From contig NZ_QGDQ01000017.1 of the NCBI RefSeq assembly GCF_003149145.1, positions 1 through 64,000 on the forward strand: a stretch of DNA of 64,000 nt. The letters are read 5' to 3'. Below are positions 22,168 to 25,638 of the stretch, one piece after another. Made by a program: the position numbers and the translations under genes. The notes under the pieces are model-generated. The model saw nothing but the letters and a program-made list of their open reading frames with translations, was not told the origin of the DNA and did not search any database. Origin of the DNA: Quadrisphaera granulorum. GTDB taxonomy: Bacteria > Actinomycetota > Actinomycetes > Actinomycetales > Quadrisphaeraceae. Every line of letters starts with the position of its first letter. Within the stretch, counting starts at the first letter, position 1.

Positions 22168-22206
22168 CCCGATCAACCAGCCCGATCAGCCAGCCCGATC
22201 AGCCGA
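22168..22206. repeat. 13-bp tandem repeat, three copies
   Basis: Three head-to-tail copies of CCCGATCARCCAG (the last imperfect) lie between the phosphorylase start and the gamma-glutamylcyclotransferase stop; the third copy supplies that stop codon (22199-22201). Confidence 0.75.
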
Positions 22207-22675
22207 CGGAGCGACAGGGGCGCGAGCGCAGCTCCGCGACGTAGTCGTCGGGGGCTCCCGCGGCTTCGGCAGCGTCGGCGAGCATGCCGAGGTAGAACGC
22301 GCTGGGCAGGCCGCCCTCGTAGTCGTCGAGGACGTACGTCCAGGCCAGCCGCTCGCCCTCGAGGGTGTCCACACGCACCTTGACCTTGGTGTAGAGGCCG
22401 ATGTCGACGCCCTCCCACTGGTCGAGCTGCTCGGCGTCGGCGTCGGTGAGGTCGTACAGGGCCACGAACACCTGGTGCTCGACGCCGCTGTCCGGATCCT
22501 CCGACGGGGGTACCTCCACGATGGTGGCCAGCGCGCCGTCCCAGCCGCGCTCCTCACCACCGAACGTCAGGCGCCAGCCGCGTAGCCAGCCCGTCTGCTC
22601 CAGGGGTGAGTGCGGCGCCCGCACGGACATCCGCTCGGGGTGAAGGTTGCTCGCGTACGCCGCGTACAGCGCCAT
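22199..22675 (-). CDS. Gamma-glutamylcyclotransferase-like protein
   Basis: A 158-residue GGCT-fold protein. The N-terminal MALYAAYASNLHPERM corresponds to the family YGSNL substrate loop, followed by GWRLTFGGEERGWDGALATIVE and VFVALYDLTDADAEQLDQWEGV, where the Glu of DxWEG is the catalytic acid. The start ATG at 22675 begins the first strand. These enzymes release 5-oxoproline from gamma-glutamyl peptides; here substrate is unproven. It neighbours the phosphorylase gene on the same strand. Confidence 0.85.
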   Translation of the reverse strand: MALYAAYASNLHPERMSVRAPHSPLEQTGWLRGWRLTFGGEERGWDGALATIVEVPPSEDPDSGVEHQVFVALYDLTDADAEQLDQWEGVDIGLYTKVKVRVDTLEGERLAWTYVLDDYEGGLPSAFYLGMLADAAEAAGAPDDYVAELRSRPCRSVG

Positions 22676-22747
22676 GACCGGTGAGGGTAGCGACCAGCTC
22701 CTCGCCCGCGCCGTCACCCGCGCCCCGACCCGCGCAAGACCACCTCC

Positions 22748-23467
22748 TCACATGCCTCCACACGCCTCCTCGGACGCGCGATCGAGCAGGAGCTCGCGGA
22801 TCACCGGCAGTAGCGGCTCGACGTCGTGCCGTACTCCAAGCGGAAGCCGGAGGACGGCCCCCGCAAACGCCGTGCACCACCAGGCTCGGCCGTCCAGCAG
22901 GGGGTCAGTCTCGTCCCTCGTCAGGTCCGGCCCGCAGCCGCGTCTGGCGATCTCCACCGCGAGCGTCGCCCCGTACGACCGCCGTCGCCCCGGGGAAATC
23001 CTCAGGTCCGGCGAAGCGACGGTGCGGGCCCACAGGTCCGGGTCCGCGACGCGCCTGACACCGTCGACCAGCACGCGTTCCACCTGGATCGGCATGATGA
23101 AGGGGTCGGCGGCGAACCCGCGGCGCGACCAGGGCTGGATCTGCCGGGGACCGTCCAGCGCCACGAGCAGCGGCTGCTCGGCCAGACCTCCCGGGTCATT
23201 GAAGTCTTGCCCCCACGGCACGGGCAGGCCTGCTGCTGCCACGGCGTGCAGACCGGTGACGCAGGTGCCGGGCGGGCACACCAGCAGGCCGGCTTGCGCC
23301 CGGAGCTTGGCGTTCCAGCCGAGGGCTACCGGCACCCGCACCCCGGTGAACGGCGCCCACAGGTCGTTACTGCGCAGACGTTTGCGTGACACGCCCAAGG
23401 CCACTGCCTCCGCAGGCCGGAAGGGGCGGCTCGCGAGGTCGGTGGGGAGCGGGGTCGGGGGGTGCAC
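22748..23467 (-). CDS. AbiEi-like antitoxin-type protein, start uncertain
   Basis: About 239 residues. The N-terminus FRPAEAVALGVSRKRLRSNDLWAPFTGVRVP is the helix-turn-helix opening typical of actinobacterial AbiEi-like/DUF559-associated proteins, and VTGLHAVAAAGLPVPWG plus RVLVDGVRRVADPDLWAR follow that family. A C-terminal nuclease domain is not seen. GTG at 23467 is my best start; the frame is open upstream to 23677 but there it runs through the 68-nt repeat hairpin. No clear ribosome-binding site. It sits with the 196-bp repeats between genes that are neighbours in relatives. Could be degenerate. Confidence 0.6.
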   Translation of the reverse strand: MHPPTPLPTDLASRPFRPAEAVALGVSRKRLRSNDLWAPFTGVRVPVALGWNAKLRAQAGLLVCPPGTCVTGLHAVAAAGLPVPWGQDFNDPGGLAEQPLLVALDGPRQIQPWSRRGFAADPFIMPIQVERVLVDGVRRVADPDLWARTVASPDLRISPGRRRSYGATLAVEIARRGCGPDLTRDETDPLLDGRAWWCTAFAGAVLRLPLGVRHDVEPLLPVIRELLLDRASEEACGGM

Positions 23468-23613
23468 CGGACCAGGCTGACGCGATCGCGTGGCCCTGCG
23501 CTGGAGCCAGGTCGCCGCCTGTGGACGATGGGCCGCAGTCCGCCGCCGGAAGCGGCATTGGTGAGGAAGCCGCGAGTGCTGAGCGGCCACCTCTGGGCGG
23601 ACGCCGTGCGCGG

Positions 23614-24073
23614 AGCTGTGAAGCGTTGGCCCCTTGGGAGTGATCGGGTGGTCACGCTGAAGGGGCCAACCGAACACAGCTCCGCGCAGGGCCCCGGTCC
23701 CCCGGGCCGGTCACTCAACGGCCCGTGTGGGGCGACCTCAGCGCGAGCGCTCGAAACCCGCGCGCGGCGGGCGGGGAGGGGCCGGCCGGGCGACTGGTTC
23801 GGTGCGGGCAGCTGTGAAGTGTTGGCCCCTTGGGAGTGATCGTGTGGTCACGCTGAAGGGGCCAACCGAACACAGCTCCGCGCAGGGCCCCGGTCCCCCG
23901 GGCCGGTCACTCAACGGCCCGTGTGGGGCGACCTCAGCGCGAGCGCTCGAAACCCGCGCGCGGCGGGCGGGGAGGGGCCGGCCGGGCGACTGGTTCGGTG
24001 CGGGCAGCTGTGAAGTGTTGGCCCCTTGGGAGTGATCGTGTGGTCACGCTGAAGGGGCCAACCGAACACAGCT
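23614..24073. repeat. 196-bp tandem repeat with 68-nt hairpins
   Basis: Three 68-nt hairpins (23614-23681, 23810-23877, 24006-24073) are spaced exactly 196 bp apart; the two 128-bp spacers are identical. Each hairpin has three stems (7 bp AGCTGTG/CACAGCT, 11 bp GTTGGCCCCTT/AAGGGGCCAAC, 4 bp GTGA/TCAC) separated by symmetric 4-nt internal loops. Hairpins 2 and 3 are identical; hairpin 1 differs at two bases. This is the only gene-free stretch over 300 bp (23468-24216). I see nothing else in its flanks 23468-23613 and 24074-24216. Confidence 0.92.
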
Positions 24074-24216
24074 CCTGGCACTGACCCCGGTGCCCCTCGA
24101 CGCCGCTCAACGGTGAATCGACGGCGAAGGAACTCGCCACTTCCCGCCCCGGAGGAACGTGCCCGCAGCGGCAGCGGAGTGGCCGGGCGCCAGGCCGATA
24201 TCGAGGGGCTGTCAGG

Positions 24217-25638
24217 ATGGGGGGCGTGCCTGGTCGAGCGCCGCGCGTCGTCGTCATCGGTGGAGGTCCCGGAGGGTACGAGGCGGCCCTGGTCGCCTCG
24301 CAGCTGGGAGCCGAGACCACCGTCGTGGAGCGCGCCGGGATGGGCGGCGCGACCGTCCTCACCGACGTGGTCCCCTCCAAGGCACTGATCTCCGTGGCCG
24401 AGGTCATGAACCTCGCCGCCGAGGCCGAGGAGCTCGGTCTGCGCTTCCCCGGGAGCGACGGCAACCCGGACACCAAGGAGCCCATCAGCGTCGACCTGGG
24501 CCGCGTCAACGCCCGGGTGCGCAAGCTCGCCGAGGCGCAGTCCGCCGACATCGGGCGCCGCCTCGCCTCCGAGGGCGTGCGCGTGCTGCGGGGCACCGGC
24601 CGGCTCGACGGCACCGAGCGGGTGGCCGTGGAGCTGGAGGACGGCGGCAGCGAGATCATCGACGCCGACATCACGCTCGTCTCCACCGGCTCCTCGCCGC
24701 GCGAGCTCGACGCCGCCAAGCCCGACGGCAAACGCATCCTCACGTGGAAGCAGCTGTACCAGCTCGACAGCATCCCCGAGCGGCTCGTCGTCGTCGGGTC
24801 CGGCGTGACCGGCGCGGAGTTCGCCAACGCGTACGACGCGCTCGGCTCCGACGTCGTCCTCGTCTCCAGCCGCGACCGCGTGCTGCCGGGGCAGGACGCC
24901 GACGCCGCCGAGGTCATCGAGGAGGTCTTCCGCCGCCGCGGCATGGAACTCATGGGGCGCTCGCGGGCGATGGCCGCGCGGTGCGAGGGCGACGGCGTCG
25001 TCGTCACCCTCGAGGACGGCCGGGAGGTGCGCGGCACGCACTGCCTCATGGCGGTCGGCTCCGTGCCCAACACGGCCGGCATCGGCCTGGAAGAAGCGGG
25101 CGTGCAGCTCTCGGAGAGCGGGCACATCGAGGTCGACAGGGTCTCGCGGACCTCCGCGCGCGGCGTCTACGCCGCGGGTGACTGCACCGGCGTGCTGCCG
25201 CTGGCGTCCGTGGCCGCGATGCAGGGCCGCACCGCCATGTGGCACGCCCTCGGCGACGCGGTGAGCCCGCTGAGGCTGCGGAAGGTGTCCGCAAACATCT
25301 TCACCGCGCCGGAGATCGCCACCGTCGGGTGGACCCAGCAGCAGGTCGAGTCCGGCGAGGTCGACGCCGAGGTGCTCATGCTGCCGCTGGCCGGCAATGC
25401 GCGCGCCAAGATGCTGGGCATCCGTGACGGCTTCGTGAAGCTGTTCGCCTCCACCGGATCCGGGCGTGTTCTCGGCGGAGTGGTGTGCGCACCGCGCGCG
25501 TCCGAGCTGATCTTCCCGGTGGCGCTCGCCGTGGAGCACGGGCTCACGGTCGACCAGGTGGCGCACGCGTTCACGGTGTACCCGTCGCTGTCGGGGTCCG
25601 TCGCCGAGGCCGCGCGCCGCCTGCACGTCACCTCCTGA
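24217..25638 (+). CDS. NAD(P)H-quinone reductase, LpdA-like flavoprotein disulfide reductase family
   Basis: A 473-residue FAD protein of the disulfide reductase family. GGGPGG near the N-terminus and VVGSGVTGAEFANAY bind FAD and NAD(P)H; VYAAGDCTGVLPLASVAAMQGR is the second FAD contact. The redox disulfide is absent: where lipoamide dehydrogenase has GGTCLNVGCIPSK this reads GGATVLTDVVPSK. The C-terminal HxxP active-site region reads FTVYPSLSGS, without the catalytic His-Glu pair. It is thus like mycobacterial LpdA, a quinone reductase. ATG 24217 or GTG 24226 (preceded by a G-run) may be the start. It follows the repeat island. Confidence 0.9.
   Translation: MGGVPGRAPRVVVIGGGPGGYEAALVASQLGAETTVVERAGMGGATVLTDVVPSKALISVAEVMNLAAEAEELGLRFPGSDGNPDTKEPISVDLGRVNARVRKLAEAQSADIGRRLASEGVRVLRGTGRLDGTERVAVELEDGGSEIIDADITLVSTGSSPRELDAAKPDGKRILTWKQLYQLDSIPERLVVVGSGVTGAEFANAYDALGSDVVLVSSRDRVLPGQDADAAEVIEEVFRRRGMELMGRSRAMAARCEGDGVVVTLEDGREVRGTHCLMAVGSVPNTAGIGLEEAGVQLSESGHIEVDRVSRTSARGVYAAGDCTGVLPLASVAAMQGRTAMWHALGDAVSPLRLRKVSANIFTAPEIATVGWTQQQVESGEVDAEVLMLPLAGNARAKMLGIRDGFVKLFASTGSGRVLGGVVCAPRASELIFPVALAVEHGLTVDQVAHAFTVYPSLSGSVAEAARRLHVTS

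Follow-up and report, generated by a model that had tools for sequence, protein, structure and literature searches.

Results

Three hairpins between divergently transcribed genes

The window, which throughout denotes the whole 64,000-nucleotide stretch of Quadrisphaera granulorum DNA analysed here, contains an array of three 72-nt hairpins with a period of 196 bp and two identical 124-bp spacers. The array sits in the divergent gap between the gene for an AbiEi-like protein on the minus strand and the gene for a quinone dehydrogenase on the plus strand (Table 1). The original prediction of a 196-bp tandem unit with identical spacers is borne out, 124 bp between 72-nt hairpins being the same as 128 bp between 68-nt ones. 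Likewise, hairpins 2 and 3 are identical, and the two bases at which hairpin 1 was said to differ are found within the 68 nt; a third difference appears within the longer form, so that hairpin 1 deviates at 3 of 72 positions. In what follows, G000 is the window's own genome and G001 to G005 are the other five Quadrisphaera genomes compared. The genes around the array had been described as usual close neighbours, and in G004 and G005 the AIG2-like gene does directly adjoin the dehydrogenase gene, at a junction with neither the AbiEi-like gene nor a hairpin core.

Table 1. Coordinates of the hairpin array and its neighbouring genes in the window
Feature	Position	Strand	Remarks
AIG2-like (gamma-glutamylcyclotransferase-type) gene	22199..22717	-	
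Gene for a probable AbiEi-like protein	22748..23467	-	239 aa; transcription directed away from the array
Hairpin copy 1 ('A')	23612..23683	.	core 23628-23667; both flanks type A
Spacer 1	23684..23807	.	124 bp, identical to spacer 2
Hairpin copy 2 (hybrid)	23808..23879	.	core 23824-23863; left flank and core as copy 3, right flank as copy 1
Spacer 2	23880..24003	.	124 bp
Hairpin copy 3 ('B')	24004..24075	.	core 24020-24059; 141 bp before the quinone dehydrogenase gene begins
NAD(P)H-quinone dehydrogenase gene	24217..25638	+	NF005883, 736.6 bits against a cut-off of 479

Folded as RNA on the plus strand, hairpins 1, 2 and 3 reach -57, -51 and -50.8 kcal/mol (z -9.2, -7.2 and -7.0), and for each of them none of 200 shuffles matches the fold. 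Folding with DNA parameters is also strong in the two copies folded (copy 1, z -8.1; copy 3, z -5.5). Extension of the outer stem of hairpins 2 and 3 to 9 bp brings in one mismatch. A chance hairpin is ruled out by the shuffles together with the lack of any match to a reversed pattern (see below). The two Rfam matches in 4 kb around the array (E 0.22 and 0.63) fall well short of the gathering scores and lie away from the hairpins, and a search of positions 23400-24300, for the sigma-70 type only, finds no promoter-like site of that type and no T-tailed terminator-like site. The earlier suggestion of a small-RNA array is not upheld: there is no Rfam match on a hairpin, no sigma-70-type promoter or T-tailed terminator, most other copies are single, and the variable columns described below do not covary.

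Dispersed copies of the hairpin in Quadrisphaera

The core pattern GGCCCCTT-N4-GTGA-N8-TCAC-N4-AAGGGGCC occurs with at most three mismatches at 30 places in G000, the window's three included, and the reversed pattern used as control occurs at none. BLAST with the 196-bp unit yields 74 matches at E <= 10 in the same genome, in both orientations, and the significant ones beyond the array fall mainly on the hairpin, not on the spacer. With at most two mismatches allowed, the core is present in 4 of 13 genomes of the bacterial family, all of them Quadrisphaera (24 in G000, 8 in G003, 14 in G004 and 3 in G005). For alignment, two copies with five mismatches were dropped from a set of 67; the remaining 65 and those of G001 and G002 came again to 67, and 56 of these entered alignment A1. 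Left out were the identical third window copy, four extended G000 copies, L007, L068 and the second member of four G004 pairs. The covariance model R1, built from the 56 copies, at least one of which came from each of the six genus genomes, matches 6 of 6 Quadrisphaera genomes at E <= 0.01; counted as hits on both strands and not as distinct sites, there are 75 in G000, 33 in G003, 46 in G004, 10 in G005 and 5 each in G001 and G002. At the same cut-off another genome of the bacterial family, G012, gives 4 weak strand-hits, of which the best reaches 5e-4. When the search is extended to the order, with the cut-off lowered to E <= 1e-5 and the filters tightened, matches come from 7 of 198 genomes, namely the six Quadrisphaera and G042 (1 of 192 outside the genus), whose one match lies at a contig end and differs in its stem letters apart from the inner GTGAC/GTCAC. 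The sole match of G002 at E <= 1e-5 is its training copy; G001 has one further site beyond the training set among the matches listed. A scan of named genomes with the exact pattern, from which records near the window were possibly left out, finds 10 stretches, eight from Quadrisphaera sp. INWT6 and two of Actinomycetales MAG origin. The exact core pattern is absent from the viral contigs searched, and the 196-bp unit has no BLAST match among plasmids and phages; we find no sign of carriage by phage or plasmid.

The case of an array with no other copy in the genome or in relatives, raised in the original prediction, is contradicted by 27 other places in the own genome and by copies in five relatives. 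With these copies against it, a one-off local duplication of an ordinary hairpin is next to impossible as the explanation, even if the tandem triplication is itself local. A search of the open-access literature found no published description of this repeat family, and we therefore file it as new, a new family of a known kind, the bacterial interspersed palindromic repeats. Integron attC-like sites were dropped as a reading because the copies are dispersed and their arm ends differ between species.

Position relative to genes

Cores lie outside called genes in 66 of 67 cases, as judged with a simple gene caller written for this analysis, and in three of the 66 intergenic copies an arm overlaps a gene end by 3-32 nt. 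Classification of the gaps at 57 loci, with 2 skipped and eight later sites not counted, gives 23 convergent, 6 divergent and 28 tandem gaps. The ratio of convergent to divergent gaps (23:6) has a binomial p of 0.002, and p = 0.0002 when compared with the remaining gaps of 80 nt or more in the window and at the same loci (8 convergent, 21 divergent). Within tandem gaps, 22 of 28 copies are closer to the 3' end of the upstream gene. The eight sites found later comprise 2 divergent, 6 tandem and no convergent gaps, four of them overlapping a called gene end by 11-50 nt; once they are added, the ratio becomes 23:8 and the bias is weaker (p 0.011). The window copies, in their divergent gap, are untypical of the family. 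The bias towards 3' ends reflects either removal by selection of insertions near promoters or an action of the hairpins at gene ends. Several copies lie beside genes for proteins that we take to be of the CWB2 cell-wall-binding-repeat family, an association that we regard as incidental.

A nearly invariant core within variable arms

The core letters are nearly invariant across copies, and the outer arms form subfamilies that mostly track the species: GGAGCTGTG..CACAGCTCC in G000, CTCGGAGGATC..GATCCTCCGAG in G003 and GCTCCGCAGATG..CATCTGCGGAGC in G004. The subfamilies are not strict, as one G003 copy has G001-type arms and some G000 copies are G003-like. By eye, a second half-site can be made out on each arm of five G000 copies. 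The stems had been predicted to be separated by symmetric 4-nt internal loops, taken as a sign of a conserved structure. The hairpins stand; the loops are not conserved, for the same columns are often fully paired elsewhere. Across 61 distinct copies of G000, G003 and G004 (the three of G005 were left out), the three variable ('bubble') columns pair in 82 of 183 cells, 0.45 against 0.44 when shuffled; the supposed loops are columns that vary independently on their two sides. Along the whole stem and in all species, two-sided changes that keep a pair fill 282 cells against 139 in a shuffled control that ignores relatedness, and the arm subfamilies contribute to this excess. Within species, pairing of the outer arms compared with shuffled arms is beyond chance in G000 (z 7.6), not clearly so in G003 (z 1.7) and below shuffled in G004 (z -2.6).

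Nine aligned G000 copies have longer outer arms in common; several of them carry terminal inverted repeats (TIRs) and end in TAGATGGTTGATTCCCAGGG or its inverse, some beside CTAG. Six of the seven genome-wide matches to a TAGATGGTTGATTCCCAGGG-type end lie at hairpin copies. At up to three mismatches the TIR end has no match in the other five genus genomes and is thus present in 1 of 6, and the window copies are without it. CTAG, a candidate target-site duplication, adjoins several TIR ends but flanks an element on both sides in a single case, L166 (G000:C25:13803). This element of about 440 bp has similar TIRs but no hairpin, whose place is taken by GC-rich repeats.

Repeat-free junctions and local pairs

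Gaps were measured at 4 of 16 selected junctions. At three of them the G000 gap is the longer one, with 474 bp against 174-215 bp in 5 of 5 relatives (L011), 277 bp against 107-154 bp in 5 of 5 relatives (L013) and 363 bp against 73 bp in G001 (L086), and the shorter junctions hold no hairpin of the family. The fourth, L004, is a convergent junction at which G000 has the repeat and G001, far from being empty there, carries a strong hairpin of another kind (L138; G001:C6:299800-300300; -67 kcal/mol), which may represent another palindromic repeat family of G001. Some sites are shared between species: at the L009 locus G000, G003, G004 and G005 all carry a hairpin, and at the dehydrogenase locus G000, G001, G002 and G003 do, G004 and G005 having none there. 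For hairpins kept at the same place in several species, a long-held function could be an alternative account.

Two hairpins are found at 5 of 15 G004 loci, all in direct orientation and 143-204 bp apart. The identity within a pair is 0.83-0.92, the 95th percentile of all G004 pairs being 0.83. Ten comparisons of 40-nt flanks of these pairs put eight below the 95th percentile of unrelated loci (0.47-0.49); the two above it (0.50 and 0.53) are the left flanks of L030 and L044. Given that the pairs are direct and their flanks mostly unrelated, what is copied to a nearby site seems to be the hairpin by itself or with a short stretch of flank. The members of a G000 pair 134 bp apart (L021) are unlike each other (identity 0.58), so not every pair is a recent copy. 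The guess of a mobile repeat gains from the dispersed copies, from their absence at the same junction in relatives and from this local copying.

Longer arrangements are also seen. Two G000 hairpins (L060; G000:C35:292-363 and 2760-2831) lie 2468 bp apart, are 96% identical and have right flanks that are 82% identical, a longer local duplication near the contig start. Another two, in G003 (L071/L043; G003:C2:73218 and 74969), flank a 1.5-kb gene whose product is presumably of the cell-wall-binding-repeat type. The same junction in G004 (L084; G004:C4:99676) lacks the 1.5-kb gene and has one hairpin, which resembles the left arm of the first and the right arm of the second G003 hairpin, as if the gene had been lost via recombination between the hairpins.

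The AbiEi-like neighbour

The 239-aa protein has no match in Pfam or NCBIfam, a profile search of PDB sequences gives no AbiEi, and Foldseek gives no match at E <= 0.001. Its AlphaFold model has a mean pLDDT of 88, and in a VIA-align comparison with 817 chains the AbiEi antitoxin 6y8q ranks first (Z 10.1, 179 aligned, rmsd 5.3) and Rv2827c ranks third (1zel; Z 7.4, 188 aligned, rmsd 4.4). Thus the label that the protein had received agrees with a structural second look, which ranks AbiEi first, although the Pfam/NCBIfam, profile and Foldseek searches are silent. Because of these first and third ranks we call the protein AbiEi-like as a probable and not a proven assignment, made on a predicted fold. 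A C-terminal DUF559 domain is present in 3 of 3 paralogues tested in the genus and missing from the clade of the 239-aa protein. Further proteins with an AbiEi-like N-domain (L167-L176) occur at one to three per Quadrisphaera genome, several of them with C-terminal DUF559.

Close relatives of the 239-aa gene stand at the dehydrogenase locus of G001 and G003, with a hairpin upstream. In G004 (L178; G004:C4:8018-8932) an AbiEi-like gene with two hairpins upstream lies between the genes for an M4-peptidase and emfourin, which are usual neighbours; a joint insertion of the gene and its hairpins is possible. An AbiEi-like gene with a hairpin about 75-145 bp upstream is found at two loci, in G000, G001, G003 and G004; in G002 and G005 there are hairpins but no close relative of the gene. 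Apparent further AbiEi-like neighbours at L006 and L008 were rejected, as their stop-to-stop frames apparently include translated hairpin and G000 has only two such genes. An AbiEii/DUF1814 toxin gene is absent among the three neighbours tested (AIG2-like, PNP_UDP_1 and quinone dehydrogenase), and a related-locus search with the AbiEi-like protein as query returned nothing.

Discussion

We propose, with a probability of roughly 0.8, that the hairpins belong to an interspersed palindromic repeat of about 72 bp that is specific to the genus, non-autonomous and similar to mobile DNA. The observed basis consists of tens of intergenic copies, three absences in relatives, local direct pairs, and a core shared between subfamilies of arms. 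Copies would arise by transposition-like or replication-coupled copying via a putative trans-acting enzyme and would be tolerated mainly near gene 3' ends, and hairpins that are transcribed may affect termination or mRNA decay. Against mobility stands the lack of a transposase partner of the Y1 class, the class surveyed: Y1_Tnp (PF01797, IS200/RAYT-type) is found at E <= 0.001 in none of the 6 genus genomes, as compared with 5 of 14 in the control set.

The array of the window by itself looks like ordinary recombination on repeats. Copy 2 is a hybrid, matching copy 3 exactly from the left flank through the core and copy 1 exactly in the right flank. A single hairpin of the same architecture lies about 63-124 bp from the dehydrogenase gene in G001, G002 and G003, and since these genomes carry it upstream of that gene, B is probably the older copy. 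The array probably arose in two steps. The older hairpin B upstream of the dehydrogenase gene would have gained a local copy A 196 bp away, an A-B pair like those of G004, and a single unequal crossover between A and B would then have produced A-spacer-(B/A)-spacer-B.

Could the hairpins act instead as transcribed RNA, as bidirectional terminators or 3'-end stabilisers selected at gene ends? Their very stable folds, their enrichment in convergent gaps and near 3' ends, the excess of two-sided pair-keeping changes over a control that ignores relatedness and subfamilies, and the other strong hairpin that fills the convergent L004 junction of G001 all point in this direction. Yet avoidance of promoters accounts for the 3'-end bias equally, the window copies sit in a divergent gap and their region has no T-tract terminator signature, a terminator does not require a nearly invariant core sequence, the outer arms of G004 pair below shuffled, and the hairpin is absent from the same junction in relatives. 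We consider it unlikely that an RNA function accounts for the family. Likewise, the hairpin might be the centre of a longer MITE of about 200-375 bp, with TIRs TAGATGGTTGATTCCC... and an IS5-like transposase, of which the short copies are decayed forms. The target-site preference of IS5 enters into this reading, and the nine aligned G000 copies with common outer arms, several ending in TAGATGGTTGATTCCCAGGG or its inverse and some by CTAG, argue for it, as does the location of nearly all matches to the end sequence at hairpin copies. However, the end sequence is confined to one of the six genomes in which hairpins occur, the window copies lack it, conservation in G004 stops near the edge of the palindrome, and there is no autonomous copy among the 7 TIR matches, which makes a full transposon of this kind quite unlikely.

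The AbiEi-like gene invites two further readings. According to the available text of PMC7319586, the AbiEi of S. agalactiae and Rv2827c of M. tuberculosis bind inverted repeats of 23 bp that lie upstream of the genes encoding them, and an operator or partner role of the palindromes is therefore possible as far as that text goes. As an operator array, half-sites GCCCCTTnnGnGTGA flanking an 8-bp centre would be bound by the AbiEi-like protein, which would repress its own gene, and the dispersed copies would be other sites. The conserved letters do correspond to two half-sites, the bubble columns do not covary, the predicted fold of the protein fits AbiEi antitoxins best, and the gene has a hairpin upstream in four genomes. 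Most copies, however, sit closer to the 3' end of a gene than to a promoter, hairpins occur in G002 and G005, where no close relative of the gene is found, the outer arms of G000 hold base pairing beyond chance that a simple operator does not need, and no toxin gene is found among the three neighbours tested. An operator as the explanation of the hairpins is, in our view, very unlikely. There is a slender chance that gene and palindromes form a partnership in the manner of RAYT and REPINs. A DNA-binding protein, domesticated and stemming from a family whose paralogues carry the nuclease-like DUF559 domain, would then recognise the palindromes, be controlled by the copies upstream of its gene, and have driven or shaped both their spread and their divergence.

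Returning to the interspersed palindromic repeat, which we prefer, we liken the family to REPs, REPINs and MITE/ERIC-type repeats as these are described in the accessible parts of PMC3116915, PMC3733652 and PMC10969869. Mycobacteria and Corynebacterium are among the taxa in a survey that covered 40 bacterial genomes for stem-loop repeat families, according to the portion available of PMC2267715. Like REPs and REPINs, the Quadrisphaera repeat is a short extragenic palindrome with many intergenic copies and group-specific sequence families, and a gene lies beside some copies, as in the RAYT-REPIN layout. A REP is defined, in the text available from PMC3733652, as a unit of 20-40 bp with a GTAG (or CGTC) tag at one end. 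Unlike this, the Quadrisphaera unit measures about 72 bp, and the border consensus of G000, G003 and G004 has no conserved GTAG/CTAC or CGTC/GACG. We reject a classical REP/RAYT element because the search for the Y1 type found no IS200/RAYT transposase in any of the six genomes. The repeat resembles MITEs (ERIC, Correia-type) in being non-autonomous, palindromic and intergenic, with a preference for 3' ends, tens of copies, presence or absence between relatives and, in a G000 subset, terminal inverted repeats. It differs from them in that the part conserved across the genus is the central palindrome and not the ends, that it is GC-rich, that signs of a target-site duplication come from TIR-bearing elements and not from the short form, and that no parent insertion sequence is found among the TIR matches. 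The 72-bp form is itself one palindrome, and the features of a MITE appear only in the G000 subset. Paired inverted repeats upstream of an AbiEi-like gene recall the operators of AbiEi, a type IV antitoxin, whereas the Quadrisphaera palindromes are longer, dispersed in the genome, mostly near gene 3' ends and without a toxin gene among the tested neighbours.

The findings add a compact, apparently genus-restricted family of palindromic repeats in high-GC actinobacteria. Given that no RAYT is found in these genomes, the family offers a way of studying the spread of such repeats without their customary enzyme. Direct pairs 143-204 bp apart and repeat-free junctions in close relatives are concrete material on this spread. 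An AbiEi-like gene with the palindrome upstream, found at two loci, is a testable lead and, if the partnership were true, would represent a repeat-partner system unrelated to Y1 transposases.
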